DNA of 64,000 nt from Rhodoferax saidenbachensis (GTDB lineage Bacteria; Pseudomonadota; Gammaproteobacteria; Burkholderiales; Burkholderiaceae_C). The translations under genes and the position numbers were made by a program. Below are positions 192 to 59,441 of this stretch, piece by piece; the first letter of the stretch is position 1; each line of letters opens with the position of its first letter. The notes under the pieces were generated by a model. The model made no database searches. It worked only from the letters and a program-made list of their open reading frames with translations, and was not told the DNA's origin. The stretch covers positions 1,302,001 to 1,366,000 of the forward strand of contig NZ_CP019239.1 in NCBI RefSeq assembly GCF_001955715.1, in the 5' to 3' direction.

Positions 192-1172
192 ATGGCCATT
201 CAGTGGTTCCCAGGGCATATGCACCTGACCCGCAAGGCAATTCAGGAACGCATCAAGGACATTGATGTGGTGATTGAATTGCTGGACGCACGCCTGCCCG
301 GCTCCAGCGCCAACCCCATGCTGGCCGACATGACCGCTGGCAAACCTGCGCTAAAGGTCTTGAATAAGCAAGATCTGGCCGATCCAGCGCGCACGGCGAT
401 ATGGTTGGCGCATTTCAATGCCCAGCCCGGTACACGTGCTTTGGGGCTGGACGCCAGCATGACCACGCCCGCCAAGGCCCTGGTGGAGGCCTGCTTTGCC
501 CTCGCCCCCACGCGGGGCGGCAGCATGGCCAAGCCCATGCGGGTGCTGATCTGCGGCATTCCCAATGTGGGTAAGTCCACCCTGATCAACACGCTCAAAG
601 GCAAACGCTCGGCCAAGACCGGCGATGAGGCCGGCGTGACCAAGATCGAGCAGCGCATCGTGCTGCAAGACGCTTTCTACCTGTTCGACACGCCCGGCGT
701 GTTGTGGCCGCGCATCATCGTGGCCAAGAGCGGCTACAACCTGGCGGCCAGCGGTGCCATTGGCAAAAACGCCTTCGACGAAGAAGAGGTGGCGCTGGAA
801 CTGCTGGACTACCTGCGCCAGCACTACCCCGCCGCCGTGGAGGCACGCTACAAGCTCAGCGGTGTGGCGGATATGACCGACGAAGAATTATTGGCCGCCA
901 TCGGCCGCAAGCGTGGCGCGTTGCAAAGCGGCGGCAAGATCAATCTGCAAAAAGCGGCCGAGATCGCTATCCACGATTTCCGCTCGGCTGTGCTGGGCCG
1001 CATCACGCTGGAAACCCCCGAGCAGTTTGCCCAGTGGCTGGCAGCGGGCCAGAAGATAGACGCCGAGCGCCAGGTCAAGAAAGACGCCATTGAACTGGAC
1101 CGCCAGATCCGCTTCAAGAAGGTTCCACGGCCACCGCGCAAGCCCGAGCCGGAAGACGAGATTTCAGACTAA
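192..1172 (+). CDS. ylqF: Ribosome biogenesis GTPase YlqF/RbgA
   Basis: 326-residue circularly permuted GTPase. The G motifs run in the order typical of the YlqF/YawG family: G4 NKQD at residues 58-61, G1 GIPNVGKST at 122-130, G2 Thr near 150 and G3 DTPG at 166-169. The N-terminus MAIQWFPGHM is characteristic of RbgA-type proteins, which act in late assembly of the 50S subunit. The ATG at 192 is chosen because it gives this family N-terminus and has an AAAGG purine run upstream; an in-frame extension upstream is low-complexity and unlikely. The stop codon overlaps the start of a dispersed repeat copy. Confidence 0.93.
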   Translation: MAIQWFPGHMHLTRKAIQERIKDIDVVIELLDARLPGSSANPMLADMTAGKPALKVLNKQDLADPARTAIWLAHFNAQPGTRALGLDASMTTPAKALVEACFALAPTRGGSMAKPMRVLICGIPNVGKSTLINTLKGKRSAKTGDEAGVTKIEQRIVLQDAFYLFDTPGVLWPRIIVAKSGYNLAASGAIGKNAFDEEEVALELLDYLRQHYPAAVEARYKLSGVADMTDEELLAAIGRKRGALQSGGKINLQKAAEIAIHDFRSAVLGRITLETPEQFAQWLAAGQKIDAERQVKKDAIELDRQIRFKKVPRPPRKPEPEDEISD

Positions 1173-1226
1173 ATCGGCCTCCAGCCCTTGTGGAGGTTGC
1201 GCAAGCAGCTATGAAAATAGTAGCGG
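1173..1226 (+). repeat. Dispersed repeat family 1, copy 1
   Basis: Reads CGGCCTCCAGCCCTTGTGG, then AGGTTGCGCAAGCAGCTAT, then GAAAATAGTAGC. It is a full-length copy. Small inverted repeats are visible (CTCCA/TGGAG and GCTAT/ATAG), around a TTGCGCAA palindrome. It begins at the ylqF stop codon, so it lies in the 3' untranslated region. Confidence 0.85.
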
Positions 1227-6505: not shown

Positions 6506-6514
6506 GTCTGCAAA

Positions 6515-6570
6515 ATCTGCCCCTGGCCCCCGTAAAATATGCGCAAGCAGCTACTGAATTGGTAGCAATC
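6515..6570 (+). repeat. Dispersed repeat family 1, copy 2
   Basis: The right half ATATGCGCAAGCAGCTACTG then AATTGGTAGCAATC matches the family. The left half (TGCCCCTGGCCCCCGTAAAA) is diverged. It ends about 30 bases before the nagZ start and may contribute to its 5' leader. Confidence 0.75.
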
Positions 6571-9656: not shown

Positions 9657-10196
9657 TCAGTCTGCGGCGGCAGCGGTCCAGAGCCGCTCGCCTGTGGTCT
9701 CCAGGTGTGTCAGGTAGATGCGCACCTCAAACTCCAGTTGGTGGTAGCTGGGCTCCATGTGGGCGCAGAGTTGGTAGAAAGCCTTGTCGTGGTCGCGCTC
9801 GCGCAGGTGGGCCAGCTCGTGCACCACGATCATTTTGAGGAAAGGCTCGGGCGTGTCCTTGAACAGGCTAGCCACGCGGATCTCGCGTTTGCTCTTGAGC
9901 TTGTTGCCCTGCACGCGCGAGATGGTGGTGTGAGTGCCCAGTGCGTTCTTCACCACGTGCAGCTTGCTGTCAAACGCCACCTTGGCTAAAGGCTCGGTAC
10001 TGCGCAGGTAGTCCTGCTTGAGGTCTTGCACATAGCCATACAGCGCCCGGTCGGTACGCACGCCATGGGGCTGCGGGTACTTGCCCAACAACCAGGGGCC
10101 CAGGCCCTTGCCGTCCATCAGTTGTTGGACCTGTGCAAGCGTTGCTTCGGGGTAACCCTGAAGGTAGGGGAAGGGAATATTTACTATCGATTTCAT
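9657..10196 (-). CDS. YgjP-like metal-dependent hydrolase (DUF45)
   Basis: 179 residues. The zinc-binding motif [17 protein letters not shown] (HELAH with a third ligand downstream) near residues 124-140 is typical of the YgjP/WLM group of M48-related metallopeptidases. Length is close to E. coli YgjP. The ATG at 10194-10196 lies inside a copy of dispersed repeat family 1 (CTATGAAATCGATAG), so the repeat supplies the start codon and the first residues MKSIV. An earlier start cannot be excluded. Confidence 0.75.
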
Positions 10197-10236
10197 AGCT
10201 GCATGCGCATGTTGGGTGCGGGCTAGAGCCAGATTT
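10187..10236 (-). repeat. Dispersed repeat family 1, copy 3
   Basis: Read on the minus strand: GGCTCTAGCCCGCACCCAAC, ATGCGCATGCAGCTATG, AAATCGATAGTAAA. It lies between the binding-protein gene and the YgjP-like gene and includes the start codon of the latter. Confidence 0.78.
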
Positions 10237-10238
10237 GG

Positions 10239-11015
10239 CTACTTTTTTGCAGCTGCGCCCTGGGTCAGCCGCGGTATCCTGCCACTCTTGTGCAGCTCGC
10301 GCAGGGCCTTGTTGAAGCGTTCGATCACGTCTTTCTGGCCCATGCTCTTGGCCACTGCGAGGTACAGGGGATCGCGCGCCAGCGGCGTCTTCAGGGTCAC
10401 CAGTTGGCTGCGTTGTGTCCATAGATCCGGTTCGCTGCGCAGTATGGCTTCGTAGCCCGCCAGACCGTTGCCGATGATCGCGCCGTCGATGCGCCCTGCC
10501 AGCAGCTTGCGCAATCGCCCGGCTTGGCCAATGTCCCGGTCGACCTTGAACAGGCCGTCCTGGATCGCGTTGTCCACCAGGTCACCGTAACTGGCGCCAA
10601 TCACACCACCCAGCGTTTTGCCCCGCAGATCGCCGAGCTGCGCAAAGTTGAATGCATGCCCCCTGCGCACCACGATCTGGATATCGTCGTTGTACATCGG
10701 GTCGGAAAAATCAAAGATCTCGCTGCGCTCCGCCGTAAGGGACACACCGACCACGGCCCCACCGCCCCGGCGGGCCAACTCGTAGGCTCGTTTCCAGGGG
10801 AACAGCTGGATCTCGTAGGTGTCGCCGCTGCGGGCGCTGACCTTGCGCAGGATATCGACCAGCACGCCCGCAGGTTTGCCCGCGGCATCGTGGTGGATCA
10901 CCGGAAGGTAGTTGTCATCGCCATACACCACCAGCGTTTCGGCATGCAAGCCCGTAGTGCCTGCGGCCGCCAGCACCGCTGCGAACGCCAGTGAACGAAA
11001 CCAGGGCGTGCGCAC
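10239..11015 (-). CDS. Periplasmic solute-binding protein, SBP_bac_3 family
   Basis: 258 residues with a signal peptide (LAFAAVLAAAGTTGLHAE, cleavage after HA). The family-3 extracellular solute-binding fold is shown by NYLPVIHHDAAGKPAGVLVDILR, the SLTAERSEIFDFSDPMY lobe junction and LRKLLAGRIDGAIIG. There are no permease or ATPase genes nearby, so it is either an orphan amino-acid binding protein or a periplasmic sensor component. It starts with GTG and has a strong AAGGAG site. It follows lysS by nine bases. Confidence 0.82.
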   Translation of the reverse strand: MRTPWFRSLAFAAVLAAAGTTGLHAETLVVYGDDNYLPVIHHDAAGKPAGVLVDILRKVSARSGDTYEIQLFPWKRAYELARRGGGAVVGVSLTAERSEIFDFSDPMYNDDIQIVVRRGHAFNFAQLGDLRGKTLGGVIGASYGDLVDNAIQDGLFKVDRDIGQAGRLRKLLAGRIDGAIIGNGLAGYEAILRSEPDLWTQRSQLVTLKTPLARDPLYLAVAKSMGQKDVIERFNKALRELHKSGRIPRLTQGAAAKK

Positions 11016-16437: not shown

Positions 16438-17136
16438 TTATTGAAATTGCTGGTCCGCTGCGCGCACGGCGGCAACGAACTCGAAAATCTTTGCGGGGTC
16501 TTTGATGCCCTTGAGGGGCTTGCCCTGAGCGTCCACGGCTTCCACGCCGGAGCTCACGTCCACGGCAAGCGTTTTACAGCGCGGCCGAACCTGGGCTATG
16601 CCATCGCCCACGTTTGCACTGGTGAGTCCACCACTCAAGACGAGGTGAGCGTTGACGCTTGGAGGAAGAAGTGACCAATTGAATGTTTTGCCGCCGCCTC
16701 CGTAGCCGTCCACATGGGCGTCTAACAGAATGGCTTGGGCGTTCGAATAATCGTGCGCGTATTTTACGAGGTCAAACGCCTGCGCGTCATCCCCCAGCGG
16801 AATACGCGCCGCACGCAAGTAGGGGCGTGCCCCATTGCCGGTTGCATTCAGGCAGTCCTGCGGCGTCTCATCACCATGAAATTGGGCTGTAGCCCCCGCA
16901 ATCATTGCGCAAACAGCTATCACTTCTGTATCAGATGCATTGACAAACAGCAGCACTGGCGTGATGAAAGGCGGCAGACGTTTGGCCAGTTCGGCCGCGC
17001 GCTGTGGCGTGACCGCCCGCGGGCTCTTGGGGTACAGCACAAAACCGATGGCGTCCGCACCGGCCGCCACCGCCGCATCCACATCCTCTTCGCGGGTCAG
17101 GCCGCAGATCTTGATTCGGGTTCTAGGGTTTGTCAT
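16438..17136 (-). CDS. trpF: Phosphoribosylanthranilate isomerase
   Basis: 232 residues. N-terminal [20 protein letters not shown] contains the general base Cys, FHGDE near residue 85 marks the second conserved strand, and [13 protein letters not shown] the phosphate site. The segment of about residues 68-85 (between FVNAS and QFHGDE) is encoded by an antisense copy of dispersed repeat family 1, yet its length equals that expected for the family and the frame stays open. The ATG start overlaps the truA stop (ATGA), so trpF is translationally coupled to truA. Confidence 0.92.
16880..16932 (+). repeat. Dispersed repeat family 1, copy 4 (inside trpF)
   Basis: Plus-strand sequence AATTGGGCTGTAGCCCCCGC, AATCATTGCGCAAACAGCTA, TCACTTCTGTATCAGATG matches the family over its whole length. 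It lies inside the leftward trpF gene in the opposite orientation and encodes roughly residues 68-85. Confidence 0.75.
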
Positions 17137-23360: not shown

Positions 23361-23397
23361 GATTTGCTATTATTTTCGTAGCTGCTTACGCACGCAT
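23361..23397 (-). repeat. Dispersed repeat family 1, copy 5 (partial)
   Basis: Minus strand: GTGCGTAAGCAGCTACGAAA, then ATAATAGCAAATC, the right half of the family. The leuD stop codon TAA (23386-23388) lies inside it. Confidence 0.7.
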
Positions 23398-24036
23398 GGT
23401 GTGGGCTAACCACGGTTTTTGTGCCAAACGTTGTGCTTCGAAGGCCTTGATCTTGTCTGCATGGCGCAGGGTCAAGCCAATGTCGTCAAAGCCGTTGATC
23501 AGGCAGTACTTGCGGAAGGCCTGCACATCAAAGGCAATCTCTTCGCCCTGAGGCTTCATGATCACTTGGCGCTCCAAGTCGATGGTGAGCTGGTAGCCAG
23601 GGAAGGCCAGCGCTTCGCTGAACAACTGGTCCACCTGGGCTTCCGTCAGCACGATGGGCAACATGCCGTTCTTGAAGCTGTTGTTGAAGAAGATGTCCGC
23701 GTAGCTGGGCGCGATGATGGCGCGAAAACCGTATTGGTCCAGCGCCCACGGTGCGTGTTCGCGCGAGGAGCCACAACCAAAGTTCTTGCGCGCCAGCATG
23801 ATGCTTGCTCCCGCGTAGCGCGGCTGGTTCAGCACAAAGTCCGGATTGGGCTTGCGGCTGGCCGGGTCCTGTCCGGGATAGCCCGCATCCAGATAACGCC
23901 ACTCGTCAAACAGGTTCTGGCCAAAGCCGGTCTTGCGGATGGACTTGAGAAACTGCTTGGGGATGATGGCATCCGTGTCCACGTTCTCGCGGTCCATGGG
24001 CGCGACCAGGCCCTTGTGGATGGTGAACTTGTTCAT
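23386..24036 (-). CDS. leuD: 3-isopropylmalate dehydratase small subunit
   Basis: 216 residues. [29 protein letters not shown] at the N-terminus and [15 protein letters not shown] near residue 80 are the aconitase swivel-domain signatures of LeuD. With LeuC it isomerises 2- to 3-isopropylmalate. Its ATG overlaps the stop of the upstream entericidin-type gene (ATGA), so its translation is probably coupled to that small lipoprotein gene. Confidence 0.96.
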
Positions 24037-33919: not shown

Positions 33920-34972
33920 GTGGCCCATCCGCGCAACGTACTCTTAGGCGCCCAGGGCGCAGCAGGTTTGTTACCTGTGTGCGACCACTACAGCGGCGTG
34001 GAGGCGCGGATGGTCAAAAGCCTGCAACTGCAGGCCGAGATGATGGAGGAATTTGGGGCCTGCGTCTTTGACGTGACCCTGGACTGCGAGGACGGCGCCC
34101 CGGTGGGCGGCGAAGTTGATCATGCAAATATGGTCGTGGCCCTCGCCAATACTGCGCAAGCAGCTCCTGATTTGATAGCAAATGTGGTGCCGCGCCGTGT
34201 CGGCGCTCGGCTACATGCCGTGGACCACCCGGCATTTGCCTCGGATGTACAGATCGTGCTGGGCGGTGCCGCCAAGGCCCTGAGCTACATCATGGTGCCC
34301 AAGGTCGAATCCATCGCCGATGTGGAGCGCGCCGTTGCCGCCATTGATGCGGCCGCCTGGGGCGTGCGGTCCACGCCTGTGCCTTTGCATGTACTGATTG
34401 AGTCTCCCGCTGCCGTGCAACAGGCATTTGAGATTGCGGCGCATCCTCGGGTGGAGTCTATCAGTTTTGGGCTGATGGATTTTGTGTCGTCCCACGGCGG
34501 GGCCATTCCGGCGTCGGCCATGGGCGTGCGTGCTGCGGGTGATATGGATTCTTTCGACCAGTTTCACCACCCGTTGGTGCTGCGCGCCAAGACAGATATC
34601 TCCAGTGCCTGCCATGCATATGGCAAGGTGCCTTCGCATTGTGTGGTGACGGAATTCAAGGACACGGCCATCTTGCAGCGCGCTGCCCGCATGGCGTCGC
34701 AGGCGCTGGGCTACACCCGCATGTGGAGCATCCACCCCGACCAGATACGCCCGATATTGGAAGCATTTTCGCCGTCGACCGAAGAGGTGGAGCAGGCCAG
34801 CGACATCGTGCTGCAGGCGCAAAAGCAGGAATGGGCGCCTATCGCGGTGCGCGGCAAGCTGCATGACCGTGCGAGTTACCGCTACTTCTGGCAGGTGCTG
34901 GAGCGGGCGCACCAGACCGGCCGCAATATGCCGAACGCAGTGCAAGCGTATTTTTCAGCCCCTGTGCATTAA
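33920..34972 (+). CDS. HpcH/HpaI/CitE-family CoA-ester lyase
   Basis: 350 residues. A TIM barrel with [15 protein letters not shown] (metal-binding Glu/Asp region) and [27 protein letters not shown] and [13 protein letters not shown], matching the malyl-CoA/citryl-CoA lyase superfamily. No other citrate-lyase subunits are nearby, so it is likely a stand-alone lyase for malyl-CoA or a related ester; the exact substrate is unknown. The start is GTG at 33920, 12 bases after mdh. Residues about 77-88 ([11 protein letters not shown]) are encoded by a copy of repeat family 1. Confidence 0.85.
34150..34182 (+). repeat. Dispersed repeat family 1, copy 6 (inside CitE-like gene)
   Basis: TACTGCGCAAGCAGCTCCTG then ATTTGATAGCAAATG matches the right half of the family. 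It reads in frame on the sense strand of the CoA-ester lyase gene; the left half, if present from about 34125, is too diverged to be sure. Confidence 0.7.
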
Positions 34973-34987
34973 CGAGGACAAAACACC

Positions 34988-35539
34988 ATGTTCAAACGGA
35001 TTCTCTGGAGTGTGTTGCTTGTGCTGCCATCACTGGTACTGGCACAGACGGCAACTAAGGCGCCATCGGCCAAAATGCGGGCCCTCAAGGTGCCTGCCGC
35101 GGAGGCATTGCCCCTGACAGAGTTGTCTGCCGAGCATTTGCTGGTGGCCCAGAAGGTGCTTGTGGGCGCCATACCTTGTGAGCTGTCCAATACGGTGGCC
35201 ATTGCTCCCCATGCCGAGTCGCCTGGTCGTTTCCTGTTGACGATAGGGCGGCAGCAGCATGTCATGGAGCCCGTGCTGACCAGCACCGGCGCTGTGCGCC
35301 TGGAGAATGCAGCGTCCGGCATGGTGTGGCTGCAACTGACCAACAAGTCCATGCTGATGGACCATAAGCAGGGAAAACGTGTGGCAGACGGCTGTATGAC
35401 ACCCGGGCAGCAACTGGTGGCTGAGGCCATGGAGCGTACCCCTCCGCCCGGTCTACTGGACCCCGTGGTCGTAGCCCAGCCCGCTGACGAAGTGAAACCG
35501 CAGGCAGGCCCCCAAACGGTGGTGACTGCTACCAAATAA
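34988..35539 (+). CDS. Secreted protein of unknown function
   Basis: 183 residues. A signal peptide (MFKRILWSVLLVLPSLVLAQ, cleavage after LA/Q) leads a mature domain with two cysteines (AIPCEL and DGCMTPG), suggesting one disulfide, and a Pro/Thr-rich tail. No family is recognised. It lies 15 bases after the CitE-like gene and 64 before acnB, within the TCA run, which suggests conserved co-expression but gives no function. Its last codons lie in a reverse copy of repeat family 1. Confidence 0.75.
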   Translation: MFKRILWSVLLVLPSLVLAQTATKAPSAKMRALKVPAAEALPLTELSAEHLLVAQKVLVGAIPCELSNTVAIAPHAESPGRFLLTIGRQQHVMEPVLTSTGAVRLENAASGMVWLQLTNKSMLMDHKQGKRVADGCMTPGQQLVAEAMERTPPPGLLDPVVVAQPADEVKPQAGPQTVVTATK

Positions 35540-35560
35540 ATAGCTGGCTGCGCAATATTG
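35524..35560 (-). repeat. Dispersed repeat family 1, copy 7 (partial)
   Basis: Minus strand: ATATTGCGCAGCCAGCTATT, then TATTTGGTAGCAGT. It spans the stop codon of the secreted-protein gene (35537-35539) and ends about 45 bases before acnB. Confidence 0.62.
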
Positions 35561-35603
35561 ACGCGGCCTTTACTGTGTTTTGTTTTAAGAAGGAGTGAGA
35601 ACC

Positions 35604-44432: not shown

Positions 44433-45353
44433 ATGAGTTTCATCTCCATATTATTTGCGTTGCTGCTGGAGCAGGCCAAACCACTGGCCCAAGTGAATCC
44501 GGTGCACAACAGTGTGCGTGACTGGGTGCGTTGGGTGATGCGCAACTTTGATGCGGGCAAATCCCACCATGGCTGGCTGGCCTGGAACTTTGCCGTGATA
44601 TTGCCTACCGTTCTGGTGTGTGCCGTGCACTGGTTGCTGGTGTGGTCACTGGGCTGGGCGGTGGCGGTGGTCTGGAATATCGTCATCCTGTATGCCACGC
44701 TGGGTTTTCGCCAATTCAGCCACCACTTCACTGACATCCGTGATGCGCTGGCTGCGGGTGACGAAGACCAGGCGCGCCGCCTGCTAGCCCAGTGGATGCG
44801 CATCGATGCGAGCGACTTGCCGCGCAGCGAAATCGTGCGGCACGTCATTGAACATTCCGTGTTGTCGGCGCACCGCCATGTGTTTGGCGTGTTTGCCTGG
44901 TACTCCTTGCTGGCTGCCTTGGGACTGGGGCCTGCGGGCGCGGTGCTTTACCGCATCAGTGAATATGTATTCCGGCACGCCAGTCGGCCCGGATCGCCGA
45001 CCCGGCCGCCAGTCAGTGCTGCTGTGCAAGCCAATGCCAGCAAAGCCTGGAACGCTATCGACTGGCTGCCGGCGCGGGTCACCGCACTGGGTTTTGCGTT
45101 TGTGGGCAGTTTTGAAGAAGCAGTAGACAGCTGGCGCCAGTACGAAGCCCAAGGCCCAGCAACCAATGATGGCGTGGTGCTGGCTGCCACGGCCGGCGCG
45201 GTTAACGTCAAGCTGGGCGGACAAAACAGCCAGGGCGACGGTCAGGTGCCGCAACCGGTGCACCTGCGCGCGGTGGTGGGCCTGGTGTGGCGCACTGTCG
45301 TGATGTGGATGGTGTTTCTGGCGCTGCTATCGCTAGCGCGTCTCCTGGGCTAG
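44433..45353 (+). CDS. CobD/CbiB family membrane protein
   Basis: 306 residues, about four to five hydrophobic helices. The start MSFISILFALLLEQAKPL and the central LGFRQFSHHFTDIRDALAAGDEDQARRLL are those of the AmpE/CobD-CbiB-like group found across Burkholderiales. There are no other cobalamin genes nearby, so a role in cobinamide synthesis is doubtful; an AmpE-like signalling or envelope role is equally possible. It overlaps the convergent rsgA end by four bases. Confidence 0.75.
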   Translation: MSFISILFALLLEQAKPLAQVNPVHNSVRDWVRWVMRNFDAGKSHHGWLAWNFAVILPTVLVCAVHWLLVWSLGWAVAVVWNIVILYATLGFRQFSHHFTDIRDALAAGDEDQARRLLAQWMRIDASDLPRSEIVRHVIEHSVLSAHRHVFGVFAWYSLLAALGLGPAGAVLYRISEYVFRHASRPGSPTRPPVSAAVQANASKAWNAIDWLPARVTALGFAFVGSFEEAVDSWRQYEAQGPATNDGVVLAATAGAVNVKLGGQNSQGDGQVPQPVHLRAVVGLVWRTVVMWMVFLALLSLARLLG

Positions 45354-46279
45354 TACCGCTTCTGCGATAGCTCTTCAAACAAATCGCTATATATTTTGTA
45401 GCGGTTTGCGCTGATTCCATGAGGGCTAGAGCCCAATTTAACCATAGAAATCACGCCACAACCGGGTTCGTGCAAATGGCTGCAGTTGTAGAACTTGCAG
45501 TCCGAGGCCTGCGCCTTGATGTCCGGCATCAGGCTGGCCAACAGCATGGGCTCGATGTGGTTCAGGCCAAACTCCTGAAACCCGGGCGAGTCGATGACGG
45601 CAGTCGTCTTGGCGGCATCCACCCAGTACAGGCTGGTGCTCGTGGTGGTGTGTTTGCCTGAATTCAGCGCCGTTGAAATCTCGTTGGTCAGCACGCGCGC
45701 GTTGGGCAGCAGCCGGTTGATCAACGTGCTTTTGCCGGAGCCTGAGGGGCCCAGTACCAGCGTGGTCTTGCCTTGTAGCAAGGGCAGCAGGGTGTCCAGC
45801 TCGGTGGCTGCGGTGTCGTCTGCTTTGGGCTTGAGTGCCAGCGGAACCACCTGGTAGCCCATGTCGCGGTAAATCCCCATGCGCTCCCAGGCGCGGCCAA
45901 AAGGCTCGGTCAAATCACTTTTGTTGAGCGCAATGATGGGGCGAATCTTTTCTGCCTCGGCCGCGATCAGTGCACGGGAGAGTTGGCTCTCGGAGAATTC
46001 GGGTTCTGCCGCAATCAGCACCAGCACCTGGTCCAGATTGGCCGCAAAAGACTTGGTGCGGATCTCGTCCTGGCGGTAAAACAGGTTGCGCCGCGGCTGC
46101 ACTTTCTCGATGGTGCCTTCGTCTTGCGTGGCTTGCCACAACACGCGGTCACCGACCACGGTCTGGCTCTTTTTGCCCCGCGGGTGGCAGATCAGGCGGC
46201 GTCCGTCGGGTGTTTCCACCCACACATGGCGGCCATGGCCAGCGACGACCAGGCCGGGTTCAAGCAGGGGCTGTGCCAA
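45350..46279 (-). CDS. rsgA: Ribosome small-subunit-dependent GTPase A
   Basis: 309 residues. An OB fold precedes a circularly permuted GTPase: G4 NKSD at 119-122, P-loop GPSGSGKST at 177-185, G3 DSPG at 230-233. A zinc finger follows with C261, C266, H268 and C274. It checks 30S maturation and hydrolyses GTP on the subunit. The start is TTG at 46279; no ATG matches the family N-terminus. It is 12 bases after the pterin dehydratase gene. Confidence 0.94.
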   Translation of the reverse strand: MAQPLLEPGLVVAGHGRHVWVETPDGRRLICHPRGKKSQTVVGDRVLWQATQDEGTIEKVQPRRNLFYRQDEIRTKSFAANLDQVLVLIAAEPEFSESQLSRALIAAEAEKIRPIIALNKSDLTEPFGRAWERMGIYRDMGYQVVPLALKPKADDTAATELDTLLPLLQGKTTLVLGPSGSGKSTLINRLLPNARVLTNEISTALNSGKHTTTSTSLYWVDAAKTTAVIDSPGFQEFGLNHIEPMLLASLMPDIKAQASDCKFYNCSHLHEPGCGVISMVKLGSSPHGISANRYKIYSDLFEELSQKRY

Positions 46280-46291
46280 CGGGGGCCGTTC

Positions 46292-46630
46292 TCAGCGCTG
46301 CGCCAATGCGTCGACCAGTGCCGCGCATTCAAAGTCGGACCTGGAGACGCCTTGCACATCGTGTGTATTGAAGCGCACGCTGCAGGTGCCGTAGGTCACC
46401 AACAATTCGGGGTGGTGGTCCTGCTGCTCGGCCAGGTAGGCCACCGCATTCACAAAAGACATGGTCTTGAGGAAGTTATCAAAGTGGTAGGTCTTCTCGA
46501 TAGCGATGTCTGCGCCGTCGCCATGCAATTTCCAGCCTTCCACCTTGGCCAGATTTGCTATTAATTGCGTAGCGCTTAGCGCAGTCCGTGGGGGGGCTGC
46601 AGACGTATTTGTTTGCGTATCTTGGGCCAT
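46292..46630 (-). CDS. 4a-hydroxytetrahydrobiopterin dehydratase (PCD/DCoH) family
   Basis: 112 residues. TYHFDNFLKTMSFVNAVAYLAEQQDHHPEL contains the E/D-x-x-H-H-P active-site motif of pterin-4a-carbinolamine dehydratases. It may recycle pterin cofactor of an aromatic hydroxylase or a molybdopterin-related pterin; no phenylalanine hydroxylase gene is nearby. Residues about 8-28 of the N-terminus are encoded within a reverse copy of repeat family 1. The ATG 46630 is one base from the M48 protease stop. Confidence 0.85.
   Translation of the reverse strand: MAQDTQTNTSAAPPRTALSATQLIANLAKVEGWKLHGDGADIAIEKTYHFDNFLKTMSFVNAVAYLAEQQDHHPELLVTYGTCSVRFNTHDVQGVSRSDFECAALVDALAQR
46545..46606 (-). repeat. 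Dispersed repeat family 1, copy 8 (inside pterin dehydratase gene)
   Basis: Minus strand: TCTGCAGCCCCCCCACGGAC, TGCGCTAAGCGCTACGCAAT, TAATAGCAAATC. It reads in the sense direction of the gene and encodes SAAPPRTALSATQLIAN or so. It is diverged (GCGCTAAGCGCT for GCGCAAGCAGCT) but matches along its whole length. Confidence 0.6.
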
Positions 46631-46631
46631 G

Positions 46632-47921
46632 TCAAACTCCGGCAGAGGCAGTGCCCAGCATGCGCCCAAGGCGCTCCGATGCGGGCGGATGCGAATAGTA
46701 AAACTTCACGTACACCGGGTCCGGGGTGAGGGTGGATGCATTGTCTTTATAAAGCTTGAGCAGGGCGGATGACAGATCCGCGCCGCTGGTCTGCGCTACC
46801 GCATAGGCATCGGCTTCAAACTCGTGTTTGCGCGAGAGCTGTGCAAACAGCGGGCCGACAAAGGTTCCCAGCAAGGGCAGCACCATCATGAACAGCATCA
46901 GGGCCAGCGCATCGTTGGGCGCGCCCAGGTTGGGCATCACGCCCAAGCCGGTGAAGAACCACACCTGTTGGCTCACCCAGCCTAGCAATGCAAAACCCAA
47001 CAGGCTCAGTGCAAACATCGACACCACCCGTTTGAGGATGTGTCTGTGTTTGAAATGTCCCAGCTCATGGGCCAGTACGGCGTCCACCTCGGGTGCGGTC
47101 AATTGCTGCAACAGCGTGTCGTAAAACACCACGCGTTTGCTGGCGCCGAAACCGGTGAAGTAGGCATTGGCATGGGCGCTGCGCTTGCTGCCGTCCATGA
47201 CATAAAAACCTTTGGAGGTGAAGCCGCAGCGCGCCATCAACTGGGTGACGCGGGTTTGCAGCTCGGCGTCTTGCAAAGGTTTGAACTGGTTGAACCAGGG
47301 CGCAATCCAGGTGGGATAGACCAGCAGCATCAGCAGGTTGAAACCCATCCACACGCCCCAGGTCCAAAGCCACCAATAGGCACCTGTGGCCCCCATCATC
47401 CACACGACCAGCGCGGCCAGCGGACCGCCAATCAGCACGGCCAGCACCGTGGATTTGACCAAGTCCTGCAACCAAAGTGCCAGCGTGGTTTTGTTGAAAC
47501 CAAAGCGCGCCTCGATGACAAACGTGCGGTACAGGGTGAAGGGCAGATCCAGCAAACTGCTGACCACCGTGAAGACTGCCAGCAGAGCGACCTGCTGGGC
47601 CAGGCTGCTGCTCAGCCATTGCCCCAGGGTTTCGTTGAGCAGCGTCAGGCCGCCCAGCAGGGTCCAGCCCAGAGTCACTGCCGCACCCCAGGCCAGTTCC
47701 AGCAAGCCGAAGCGTGATTGGGCGATGGTGTATTCGGCGGCCTTCTGGTGGGCTTCGAGCGAGATTTGATCTACAAAGGCGGCTGGCACTGCATGGCGGT
47801 GTTGCGCGACATGGCGCATCTGGCGGCTGGCCAGCCAGAATTTCAGCACCAGGCTCCCCGCCAAGGCGAGTGCAAAGACCAGCGTGAGTAGGTTCGAGGG
47901 GTTCAGGGGGAAATCTGTCAT
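46632..47921 (-). CDS. M48 family membrane metallopeptidase (Ste24/CAAX-protease type)
   Basis: 429 residues. Several N-terminal membrane helices (LLTLVFALALAGSLVLKFWL and others) are followed by the zinc motif HELGHFKHRH near residue 283 and a downstream Glu ligand in KHEFEADAYA. The YFTGFGASKRVVFYDTLLQQL segment is typical of Ste24-like bacterial M48A enzymes. Probably a quality-control protease of the inner membrane. First gene of a leftward run with the dehydratase and rsgA. Confidence 0.92.
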   Translation of the reverse strand: MTDFPLNPSNLLTLVFALALAGSLVLKFWLASRQMRHVAQHRHAVPAAFVDQISLEAHQKAAEYTIAQSRFGLLELAWGAAVTLGWTLLGGLTLLNETLGQWLSSSLAQQVALLAVFTVVSSLLDLPFTLYRTFVIEARFGFNKTTLALWLQDLVKSTVLAVLIGGPLAALVVWMMGATGAYWWLWTWGVWMGFNLLMLLVYPTWIAPWFNQFKPLQDAELQTRVTQLMARCGFTSKGFYVMDGSKRSAHANAYFTGFGASKRVVFYDTLLQQLTAPEVDAVLAHELGHFKHRHILKRVVSMFALSLLGFALLGWVSQQVWFFTGLGVMPNLGAPNDALALMLFMMVLPLLGTFVGPLFAQLSRKHEFEADAYAVAQTSGADLSSALLKLYKDNASTLTPDPVYVKFYYSHPPASERLGRMLGTASAGV

Positions 47922-52996: not shown

Positions 52997-53032
52997 ATCT
53001 GGTGAAGGCGTGTGGCTTTCTACAATCACCCC

Positions 53033-55447
53033 ATGCTTTCCATGTCCGCCGCCAACGATACTGCGCTGTCCCCCCTGCTACACAACCTCAACCCCGAACA
53101 ATTGGTCGCCGTGACGCTGCCGGCCGAGCACGCACTGATCCTCGCCGGCGCGGGCTCCGGCAAGACCCGGGTGCTGACCACGCGCATTGCCTGGCTGCTG
53201 CAAAACGGCTATGTCTCGCCCGGCGGTATCCTGGCGGTCACCTTTACCAACAAGGCCGCTAAGGAGATGAAGACGCGCCTGTCCGCCATGTTGCCGGTGA
53301 ATGTGAATGGCATGTGGATTGGCACCTTCCACGGCCTGTGCAACCGCTTTTTGCGCGCGCATTACAAAAATGCCGGCCTGCCGCAGGCCTTCCAGATTCT
53401 GGACACACAAGACCAGCTCAGTGCCATCAAACGCTTGTGCAAACAGCACAACATCGACGGTGAGCGTTTTCCGCCCAAACAAATGGGCTGGTTTATCGGC
53501 AACTGCAAGGAAGAAGGCCTGCGCCCCAAGGACGTGGTGGCCAGCGACCCGGATACGCGCAAGAAGGTCGAGATTTACCAGCTCTACGAAGACCAGTGCC
53601 AACGCGAAGGTGTGGTGGACTTTGGTGAGTTGATGCTGCGCAGTTACGAACTGCTGCGTGACAACACCGCTATCCGCGAGCACTACCAGCGGCGCTTTCG
53701 CCACATTTTGATCGACGAGTTTCAGGACACCAACAAGCTGCAGTACGCCTGGATCAAGATGATTGCCGGGCAGGGCAGCGATGGCTTGCTCAACGGCGGC
53801 GGTGGCTCCGTACTGGCGGTGGGTGATGACGACCAGAGCATCTACGCCTTTCGCGGTGCGCGTGTGGGCAACATGACGGACTTTGTGCGCGAGTTTGCGG
53901 TGCAGCGCCAGATCAAGCTGGAAGAAAACTACCGCAGCTACAGCAACATTCTGGACAGCGCCAACGCGCTTATCAGCCACAACAGCCGCCGCCTGGGCAA
54001 GAACCTGCGCACGGCGCAGGGCGCAGGCGAACCGGTGCGGGTGTACGAGGCACCCAGTGATTTTCTGGAAGCGCAGTGGATGGTGGACGAGATGAAACAA
54101 CTCATCCGCGACGACGTGGAGCGCAAGGAAATTGCGGTGCTCTACCGCAGCAATGCGCAGAGCCGGGTGATTGAGACCACGCTGTTCAACGCCGCGATTC
54201 CGTATCGCGTGTACGGTGGTCAGCGCTTCTTTGAGCGCAAAGAAATTAAGGATGCGTTGGCCTATTTGCGCATCTTGGAGAACCCCAACGACGACACCAG
54301 TTTTCTGCGTGTGGTGAACTTTCCCGCGCGTGGCATTGGCGCGCGCAGCCTGGAGCTATTGCAGGACGAGGCCAAGGCGACGGGTTGTTCGCTGCACGAC
54401 GCGGTGAGCACACTCACAGGCCGCCCCGGCGCATTGATTGCGGGTTTTGTCGCCAAACTCGATGTGTTGCGCGAGCAGACGGCTGACAAGACCCTCAAGG
54501 ACATCGTCACGTTGATGCTGGACCAGAGCGGCCTGCTGGAGCACTACCGCAATGACCGCGAAGGCGAAGACCGCATCGAGAACTTGGACGAACTGGTCAA
54601 CGCCGCCGAGAGTTTTGTCATGCAGGAAGGTTTTGGCCGCGAAGCGCCGGGTATGGCGCAGTTGGCCAGTGCGCCCAATGCCTTGACCCAAAGCCCGGCC
54701 AGCCAGGGCTTGAGCGGCGATGCGCTGAATGCAGCGCCCGACGAATTTGGCGACACCGGCGAAACCCTCTCGCCGCTGCAGGCCTTCCTGACCCACGCCG
54801 CGCTGGAAGCGGGCGACAACATGGCCGCCGCCGGACAGGACGCGATCCAGTTGATGACTGTGCACAGTTCCAAGGGGCTGGAGTTTGACTGCGTGTTTAT
54901 CACCGGCATGGAAGAGGGCCTTTTCCCGCACGAGAACTCCCTGAGTGACCGCGACGGACTGGAGGAAGAACGCCGCCTGGCCTATGTGGCCATCACGCGC
55001 GCGCGCAAGCGCCTGTACCTGAGCCATTCGCAAACCCGCATGCTGCACGGCCAGACGCGCTTCAATCTCAAGAGCCGCTTCTTTGACGAACTGCCCGAGG
55101 AGTGCCTCAAGTACCTCACGCCCAAACAGCAGCCCATGCCCGCCGGGGGCGGCTTTGGTGGTAGCTGGGGCAATGGATATGCTACGAATTCAGGAGCTGG
55201 TCGCGCATATTCCACGGGGGCTACAGCCTCATTTGGCACTTATTCCGCGCCGCAGAAGGAAGTTGCCCGCAAGGAAGACCCCACCGGCCTGCAAAAGGGC
55301 CAGAAGGTTTTCCACGCCAAGTTTGGCGAGGGCACGGTGCTCACGCTGGAAGGTGCGGGCGACGATGCGCGCGCGCAGATCAACTTCCCGCGCCACGGCA
55401 CCAAGTGGCTGGCGCTGAGCGTGGCCAAACTGACACCCGTTCCCTGA
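53033..55447 (+). CDS. uvrD: UvrD-family DNA helicase
   Basis: About 804 residues, superfamily 1A. Walker A AGAGSGKTRVL near residue 40, motif II LIDEFQDTNKLQY near 228, GDDDQSIYAFRGA near 265, motif IV/V (GLEFDCVFITGMEEGLFP) near 620 and VI YVAITRARKRLYL near 655. A C-terminal KOW-like domain (GQKVFHAKFGEGTVLTLEG) follows a Gly/Ser linker. The ATG at 53033 or 53042 may be used; an in-frame GTG at 53012 is less likely. Residues about 715-735 of the linker come from an antisense copy of repeat family 1. It acts in nucleotide excision and mismatch repair. Confidence 0.94.
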   Translation: MLSMSAANDTALSPLLHNLNPEQLVAVTLPAEHALILAGAGSGKTRVLTTRIAWLLQNGYVSPGGILAVTFTNKAAKEMKTRLSAMLPVNVNGMWIGTFHGLCNRFLRAHYKNAGLPQAFQILDTQDQLSAIKRLCKQHNIDGERFPPKQMGWFIGNCKEEGLRPKDVVASDPDTRKKVEIYQLYEDQCQREGVVDFGELMLRSYELLRDNTAIREHYQRRFRHILIDEFQDTNKLQYAWIKMIAGQGSDGLLNGGGGSVLAVGDDDQSIYAFRGARVGNMTDFVREFAVQRQIKLEENYRSYSNILDSANALISHNSRRLGKNLRTAQGAGEPVRVYEAPSDFLEAQWMVDEMKQLIRDDVERKEIAVLYRSNAQSRVIETTLFNAAIPYRVYGGQRFFERKEIKDALAYLRILENPNDDTSFLRVVNFPARGIGARSLELLQDEAKATGCSLHDAVSTLTGRPGALIAGFVAKLDVLREQTADKTLKDIVTLMLDQSGLLEHYRNDREGEDRIENLDELVNAAESFVMQEGFGREAPGMAQLASAPNALTQSPASQGLSGDALNAAPDEFGDTGETLSPLQAFLTHAALEAGDNMAAAGQDAIQLMTVHSSKGLEFDCVFITGMEEGLFPHENSLSDRDGLEEERRLAYVAITRARKRLYLSHSQTRMLHGQTRFNLKSRFFDELPEECLKYLTPKQQPMPAGGGFGGSWGNGYATNSGAGRAYSTGATASFGTYSAPQKEVARKEDPTGLQKGQKVFHAKFGEGTVLTLEGAGDDARAQINFPRHGTKWLALSVAKLTPVP
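55178..55240 (-). repeat. Dispersed repeat family 1, copy 9 (inside uvrD)
   Basis: Minus strand: GCCAAATGAGGCTGTAGCCC, CCGTGGAATATGCGCGACCA, GCTCCTGAATTCGTAGCATA. It is a full-length copy opposite to the gene and encodes the linker segment TNSGAGRAYSTGATASFG. Confidence 0.82.
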
Positions 55448-55784: not shown

Positions 55785-55800
55785 GCGCGCGCTGATTACA

Positions 55801-55862
55801 AGCCAAATTGGCCTCTAGCCCTTGTGGAATATGCGCAAGCAGCTATTAAAAGAATAGCTATA
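55801..55862 (+). repeat. Dispersed repeat family 1, copy 10 (best copy)
   Basis: AGCCAAATTGGCCTCTAGCC, CTTGTGGAATATGCGCAAGC, AGCTATTAAAAGAATAGCTA. This is the clearest full-length copy. It is intergenic, between the ABM gene and the CzcI-like gene, and ends just upstream of the latter's start region. Confidence 0.9.
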
Positions 55863-59341: not shown

Positions 59342-59385
59342 GTACAGCGGTGGATTTACCCCTGTGGCTGCGTGGATTTTTATAA

Positions 59386-59441
59386 AAAGCGGCCGAAACC
59401 CTTTTGGAGTATGCGCAAACAGCTATTAAAACGATAGTGTT
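59386..59441 (+). repeat. Dispersed repeat family 1, copy 11
   Basis: AAGCGGCCGAAACCCTTTTG, GAGTATGCGCAAACAGCTAT, TAAAACGATAGTGTTTGC. It is full-length and intergenic. The 314-bp transpeptidase-phoX gap otherwise holds the phoX promoter region, with one CTGTCAC Pho-box-like half-site near 59598 that lacks a convincing partner. Confidence 0.82.

Follow-up and report, generated by a model that had tools for sequence, protein, structure and literature searches.

What maintains a dispersed repeat of several dozen letters in the genome of Rhodoferax saidenbachensis is the question raised by the stretch of 64,000 nucleotides studied here (the window). The initial annotation had listed eleven copies and likened them to REP or Rickettsia palindromic elements. 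Such copies might represent a mobile element, an RNA structure, binding sites of a chromosomal protein or signals for DNA uptake.

Copy number and structure of the motif

In the whole genome (4,264,855 bp), the 15-mer TGCGCAAGCAGCTAT gave 459 matches with up to two mismatches (257 forward, 202 reverse), while the same pattern read backwards, which served as control, gave 8. A profile scan was carried out over 1.264 Mb, comprising 60 stretches of 20 kb and the window. At E<0.01 it detected 182 copies, whereas the reversed sequence gave 0 (and 7 at E<10); by extrapolation we estimate about 600 copies per genome. Thus the motif is overrepresented on both strands with hundreds of copies, as is characteristic of DNA uptake signals (DUS/USS).

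All eleven sites listed before were recovered by the profile in the orientations given there, and a twelfth, absent from that list, was added (copy 8 in Table 1). The bare 15-mer with up to three mismatches recovered 9 of the 11; the copies near 46545 and 55178 have cores too diverged for it and were detected by the profile and a repeat finder. The family is indeed dispersed in both orientations, at about one copy per 7 kb where about 6 kb had been given, and the unit is longer than the supposed 55 bp.

Table 1. Motif copies in the window, the host gene of copy 4 and a copy on a plasmid (E, profile E-value)
Feature	Position	Strand	Context
Motif copy 1	1163..1225	+	E 7.3e-16; overlaps last bases of ORF 219-1172
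Motif copy 2	6509..6568	+	E 3.7e-15; intergenic
Motif copy 3	10181..10240	-	E 2.5e-12; between and touching ORFs 9657-10196 and 10239-10976
Motif copy 4	16876..16930	+	E 4.4e-10; within trpF, strand opposite to gene
trpF, phosphoribosylanthranilate isomerase	16438..17136	-	host of copy 4 (aa 69-87); phmmer to 1lbm and others
Motif copy 5	23364..23428	-	E 4.6e-9; overlaps 3' end of ORF 23386-24036; in 4/4 relatives compared
Motif copy 6	34125..34181	+	E 1.3e-12; within ORF 33920-34972
Motif copy 7, partial	35527..35569	-	E 1.9e-7; 3' end of ORF 35075-35539
Motif copy 8	45384..45442	-	E 4.5e-13; near 3' end of ORF 45350-46279, aa 280-299 of 310
Motif copy 9	46555..46611	-	E 2.4e-7; between ORFs 46292-46543 and 46632-47921
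Motif copy 10	55180..55242	-	E 5e-15; within ORF 53012-55447 (presumably a UvrD/Rep-type helicase), variable C-terminal linker (orthologs aligned)
Motif copy 11 (the reported one)	55796..55858	+	E 4.9e-17; intergenic
Motif copy 12	59382..59438	+	E 3.9e-10; intergenic
DUF1010 gene copy	L218:2501-2546		Citrobacter freundii plasmid pCTX-M3; between dfrA12 and aadA2

The unit spans about 65 columns, roughly AAATTT..GCCAAATnGGCCTCTAGCCC..TGCGCAAGCAGCTATnAAATnnATAGCAAATTT, and carries about 65 bits of information, approximately 30 of which reside in the core. This core, TGCGCAAGCAGCTAY-n7-RTAGC, is nearly fixed, and a second arm, GGCCTCTAGC[C/G]C, is located upstream. Within the 65-column model the conserved columns are AAAT or AAAA (10-13), GGCC (about 15-18), AGC[C/G]C (22-26), TGCGC (37-41), AGCAGCTAY (43-51) and RTAGC (59-63). 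In the short A/T tracts AAA and TTT are interchangeable: at columns 54-56 the 182 copies show AAT in 53, AAA in 44, TTT in 32 and ATT in 31 cases. The consensus across genera, TcAAATaGGCCTCTAGCGC-n11-GCGCaAGCAGCTATTAAATTAATAGC (160 copies), forms an imperfect dyad with GCGCNAG..GC arms 11 bp apart.

One might take such a unit for an RNA-level element, that is a terminator, an attenuator or a processing site, since nearly half of the sampled copies are intergenic (85/182) and the GCTAT/ATAGC letter pair, described before as a mini-hairpin, is conserved. However, conservation does not extend to the pairing, whose measures in 50 copies equal those of shuffled partners. The consensus folds with -1.5 kcal/mol and 0 compensatory pairs, while the strongest correlated columns in the own genome are neighbours. 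Because of these three results, we read the signal as one that acts as DNA and not as RNA. Covariation analysis of the own-genome copies gave no pairing signal either. Between genera, A-T/T-A combinations were in weak excess across the central gap. The Rfam search returned no family match for the motif (four weak matches lay elsewhere). Furthermore, of the copies in genes 36 have the orientation of the gene and 26 the opposite one, and altogether we consider an RNA-level function highly improbable. Columns 27-28 of the own-genome copies were found to be tightly tied (TT, GC or CC), with no long-range partner.

Genomic context and spacing

A home-made gene caller, on which the gene context rests, places 85 of the 182 copies between genes and 62 within them and classes 35 as partial, while random segments fall to 7.7% between genes, to 8.0% partially and to 84.2% within genes. 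Copies therefore occur in and between genes and are enriched at permissive sites, a distribution shared with DUS/USS. Those within genes use the three reading frames 30, 3 and 3 times on the gene strand and 18, 7 and 1 times against it.

The copies keep their distance from each other. Among 161 neighbour gaps one was shorter than 500 bp, whereas 12.4 would be expected at random and 21.5 if gene and intergenic classes are kept. None was below 400 bp, and close inverted pairs of the DUS-terminator type, which are common although not essential in DUS, are absent. Two related genomes behave alike, with gaps below 1 kb in 2/77 cases against 11.6 expected (G156) and in 2/68 against 8.8 expected (G208); the long gaps of G208 vary more than random ones (CV 1.33 vs 0.98).

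Both relatives also allowed separation of syntenic from other DNA. G208 comprises 66 copies in 373 kb of syntenic and 3 in 127 kb of other DNA (p 6e-6), G156 68 copies in 372 kb and 10 in 108 kb (p 0.04). The motif is thus enriched in core and depleted in accessory DNA of both genomes, as uptake signals are. Phage records hardly contain it (1/50,697 with a motif match), and 45 stretches of viral contigs match exactly. As a side observation, a 60-kb block of the own genome (G000:C1:600001-660000) has 56% G+C, compared to about 61%, and one motif copy, looking like acquired DNA.

The main rival to an uptake signal comes into play here: a protein for chromosome organisation or segregation could use the motif as its binding site throughout the chromosome, and selection for sites and co-evolution with the protein would lead to conservation, spacing and dialects. 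All evidence for recognition in trans fits this explanation equally well, and the imperfect dyad with its A/T tracts would suit a DNA-wrapping or dimeric protein. However, copies show weak polarity with respect to replication (104 along vs 78 against the leading direction), and no clustering at ori or ter was seen by eye in 21 sampled blocks. One third of the sampled sites (62/182) lies in genes, which would be costly if intergenic DNA could serve as well, and the sparseness in non-syntenic DNA is predicted more directly by uptake. We regard such a chromosomal protein as a serious but rather unlikely candidate.

Conservation of copies in place

Across five syntenic genomes, 235 pairwise lifts were obtained, and the copy was found in 222 of them, absent in 12 and intermediate in 1. 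For G156 and G208, two species with 92.4% identity over aligned blocks, a lift was attempted for 140 copies, 16 of which were not liftable; out of the remaining 124, 122 are common to both, 1 is weak and 1 absent.

Copies are also better conserved than their surroundings. The core of intergenic copies is 96.5% identical (n 400), compared to 89.4% in intergenic flanks (n 1341; Fisher 3e-6). In-gene copies are 91.6% identical at third codon positions (n 491), flanking codons 83.8% (n 2475; 3e-6). The sample behind these values (20 intergenic, 26 in-gene and 15 partial copies) was picked by profile score, which somewhat inflates the conservation. The upstream arm of intergenic copies (90.2%) is no more conserved than the flanks, and their other columns are 87.6% identical. 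Such persistence in place, with the core exceeding its flanks, is likewise known from DUS/USS.

An ancient non-autonomous mobile element of MITE-, REP- or RPE-like type, the survivors of which became fixed and partly domesticated, would be a different origin of the copies. The unit of about 65 bp would suit it, as would the one intergenic presence/absence case that has an element-sized gap. Some of the 12 absences are length-neutral, and in two loci viewed by eye no target-site duplication was recognised.

Copies within conserved enzymes

Seven proteins with a copy were tested. In TrpF (aa 69-87) and CoaBC (aa 255-276, 45 bits), the alignment with solved homologues is free of gaps at the motif, whereas four others have 4-17 extra residues there: SDR 4, the first copy of PurL 7, AcnA 14 and DapE 17 (21 if a gap of 4 outside the motif is counted). 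In GluQ the motif falls into an unaligned loop.

For TrpF, 30 out of 57 matching genomes of the genus were inspected and all 30 are gap-free. The motif is present in 23/23 genomes with at least 15 pattern matches and in 0/7 with fewer than 10; the motif-rich G183, which is outside those 30, lacks the copy and turns the first count into 23/24. For CoaBC, 30 of 58 matching genomes (one per genus, best-scoring) had loci and were inspected, 29 of which are gap-free. Here the motif exceeds 15 bits in 8/11 genomes that have 20 or more core-pattern matches, compared to 0/19 of those with fewer than 10. Among motif-rich genomes, the copy is absent in G002, G012 and G023, and by profile count also in G042, G027 and G047, since the core pattern misses dialects: G042, G047 and G027 have 28-30 profile but 2, 2 and 9 pattern matches, respectively. 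If genomes are sorted by profile count, the ratio becomes 8/14 vs 0/16 (Fisher 5e-4, in a test that ignores relatedness). In both enzymes the motif is thus present or absent by substitution and without insertion, as DUS/USS are.

When the segments of the own genome were synonymously recoded according to its codon usage (5000 tries per gene), the maximum score was 36.1 for CoaBC and 24.4 for TrpF, while the real scores are 45.4 and 38.3; 0/5000 recodings reached the real value in either gene, and 124 and 23, respectively, reached 15 bits. A chance origin of these two copies was rejected on this basis. The codons of the segments are unusual as well, with 3/377 windows in CoaBC and 13/208 in TrpF showing more unusual codons than the motif segment.

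We also considered a CoaBC tree, which is weakly resolved and from which the motif segment was excluded. To explain the label motif-rich, 10 changes are needed whichever count is used, and well-supported branches require at least 3 of them. The label does not cluster more strongly than shuffled labels do (426 and 279 of 500 as low).

The extra residues of DapE, AcnA and PurL speak for a mobile origin, and the DapE copy fits on length a Rickettsia palindromic element, which adds peptide in frame. TrpF and CoaBC do not fit: their copies are length-neutral and composed of unusual codons, so that for these two a mobile element is largely refuted. Moreover, the motif has no fold and its copies avoid each other. 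We therefore regard a mobile origin as improbable. The proposed resemblance to REP or Rickettsia palindromic elements is not borne out, given the lack of a conserved fold, almost no presence/absence variation between species and two enzymes to which the copy adds no length.

A link to a RAYT-like transposase fails too for the single family tested (Y1_Tnp), which has one match in the own genome and occurs in 55/61 genomes of the genus, motif-free relatives included. A REP/RAYT element was consequently rejected, as the hairpin is not kept by compensatory change and an association with RAYT was not found. The match itself (G000:C1:3412960-3413280) is a single copy, separated by about 9 kb from the best match to pilM; this distance is 10-13 kb in some congeners (G183, G171, G164), and the gene is apparently inherited vertically.

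Dialects and distribution

Column 25 differs between lineages. It is C in 93% of the own-genome copies and in 82% of those of G199, while it is G in 79% (G183), 91% (G156) and 92% (G208). At 17 informative orthologous sites compared between two species groups, which were defined by sequence identity and not by a tree, 13 show C vs G; the other four are G/G (2), C/C (1) and C versus A/C (1). Copy 6 of the window illustrates this, as it is found in 5/5 syntenic genomes without length change and has C or G at column 25 according to species group. The columns beside column 25 often keep locus-typical bases (by eye). This pattern is explained by selection or drive that a changing reader exerts base by base, but not by the copying of whole units. 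A difference at the same base by lineage, at orthologous sites with locus-specific neighbours, also speaks against a mobile element.

G196, which belongs to the same genus, gave nine matches with GCTC (8) or GCAC (1) where others have GCGC, and 45 matches once that position was opened; its motif is a second dialect. Lineage dialects are a further trait of DUS/USS.

The core pattern matches in 102/299 genomes of the family (1 to 434 copies) and is lacking in the other 197; within the genus it is found in 42/61 genomes, the own genome included. With the profile, 58/150 genomes of the family match. Outside the family, 8/291 genomes have one match each, which is no excess over the reversed pattern. 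Among the matches listed, the exact core occurs in Polaromonas, Acidovorax, Rhodoferax, Simplicispira, Curvibacter, Xenophilus, Ottowia, Variovorax, Giesbergeria, Diaphorobacter, a Rubrivivax MAG and other MAGs. The presence across several genera of the Comamonadaceae, stated in the initial annotation, is hence confirmed.

Two side observations belong here. First, no more than 2 core matches were seen in 22/26 listed genomes of the genus below 3 Mb, many of which are incomplete; the other four are G182 (109), G178 (106), G192 (22) and G202 (21). Second, the DUF1010 cassette of class 1 integrons, which we take to be gcuF, carries a motif copy of 37 bits (Table 1). By blastn of the window copy, 1748 plasmid records match, and the DUF1010 gene is annotated in 24/26 among the matches listed. 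The copy therefore suggests that the cassette is of Comamonadaceae origin.

Comparison with known systems

The uptake signal sequences (USS) of Haemophilus and other Pasteurellaceae combine a fixed core with spaced A/T tracts, a build much like that of the present motif. They are dispersed as well, with about 1300 copies in H. influenzae, but their sequence AAGTGCGGT is unrelated (PMC5217627) and the motif found here is longer and has a second arm. The DUS of Neisseriaceae are alike in having many conserved copies at permissive sites of the core genome, in and between genes, in being absent from recently acquired genes and in forming lineage dialects (PMC3630211, PMC2397512); they are unlike in being short. 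According to PMC2397512, it was recombination and not point mutation that gave rise to many recent DUS, two routes that our data do not separate for the present motif. Known uptake signals have about 9-12 bp (9-11 bp in PMC4212676), compared to about 65 columns and 65 bits here. Because of this length we do not claim membership in the class, although the motif would, judged by its sequence properties, work like a DNA uptake signal.

Pieces of the motif were in print before. Tong et al. (2017, PMC5217627) list GCTTAT(N)5AAGCG with 114 copies in Acidovorax ebreus and ATAGCT(N)22CAAAAG with 125 copies in Polaromonas naphthalenivorans, and Rhodoferax ferrireducens has the most significant motif pairs there (140). 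In the sections of that paper used here, both pairs are unexplained, single-genome entries that are neither joined into one family nor given a function. GCTTAT(N)5AAGCG, for which we found 7 matches in 80 loci of named genomes, most of them by eye in recognisable copies, corresponds to the centre of Acidovorax-type copies as judged by sequence. ATAGCT(N)22CAAAAG had 0 exact matches and one near match in the named-genome loci, and to consider it as a piece of the present motif is a guess.

In the open PMC literature, the scope of our search (subscription papers lie outside it), no paper joins the pieces into one family or proposes uptake, and a literal text search for the motif gave, among the matches listed, unrelated titles throughout. 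The earlier statement that there was no formal description is thus nearly right, apart from the fragment listed for A. ebreus as an unexplained pair: as one family the motif appears to be new, with fragments in print since 2017 as far as the consulted sections go.

Two other repeats deserve comparison. BRE (Hot et al., 2011, PMC3110155) are likewise dispersed in Comamonadaceae and Bordetella, yet according to the portions used they comprise 75-91 bp with 69% G+C in Bordetella, are sometimes tandem and have only 4 copies in R. ferrireducens; they are set apart from the motif by this description only. REP/BIME elements with RAYT are also dispersed in many copies, but differ from the motif, which has no hairpin constraint, no paired arrangement and a RAYT-like gene that is found in motif-free relatives too.

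A candidate DNA uptake signal

Taken together, some sequence-specific factor very probably maintains the motif. We interpret the copies as recognition sites and not as a mobile repeat, and a DNA-binding factor would be expected to read them. The best reading of the sequence data would be a third, unusually long family of DNA uptake signals, and in this our confidence is evenly balanced. Most likely, the factor would be part of the type IV pilus/Com DNA-uptake machinery. Fragments bearing a copy would be taken up preferentially from lysed kin and then recombined into the chromosome. Due to this preference, alleles closer to the signal would be favoured at every site where they are tolerated by the protein or gene, and if the receptor changed, the copy set would drift to a new dialect.

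Observations on transformation in the family are compatible with uptake. Davidson and colleagues, who describe sequence-selected uptake as well established in Neisseriaceae and Pasteurellaceae, reported pilus-dependent, sequence-selective transformation of Verminephrobacter eiseniae and found Acidovorax temperans to be transformed by DNA of its own species only (PMC4212676); the sections of that paper used here name no uptake signal. The species barrier of A. temperans could, however, also lie in recombination. In 24 kb, made up of three A. temperans loci that had each been selected for the presence of a copy, we counted 7 copies.

The machinery itself is widespread: among the 61 genomes of the genus, motif-poor ones included, ComEC is found in 55, PilM over the cut-off in 52 and GspH in 56, and the own genome has all three. 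None of the families ComEC, PilM, GspH and RAYT separates motif-rich from motif-poor relatives among these 61. Among motif-rich genomes, a ComEC match is absent from G175 (165 copies), G169 (184), G179 (140) and G161 (39), PilM over the cut-off from G169, G192 (22) and G201 (23), and a GspH match from G209 (278), G179, G182 (109) and G192. All genomes without a machinery match, except G175 and G209, are below 90% complete. G175, of the same genus, is 99% complete in 90 contigs and thus counts against uptake unless an assembly gap or a recent loss is responsible. Motif-rich genomes without ComEC fit better to a chromosome-organising protein. Because of G175 we lowered our confidence in uptake to its present balanced state and raised that in the chromosomal protein, which nevertheless stays the less likely of the two.

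More specifically, and tentatively, we propose from the sequence comparisons that the Comamonadaceae may possess a third, independently evolved form of self-recognition in DNA uptake. It would use a signal in two parts, about 60 bp long, in which A/T tracts are interchangeable; within the family it would repeatedly have turned on and off, and while on it would rewrite codons of conserved enzymes. If this is true, such a third case would make selfish molecular drive versus selection for kin DNA testable in new lineages, those of a large environmental family for which selective transformation is reported. Whichever factor reads the motif, a 60-bp motif built by substitution in conserved enzymes, with a clade-wide difference at one base, represents an unusually clean natural experiment on DNA-level selection on coding sequence.
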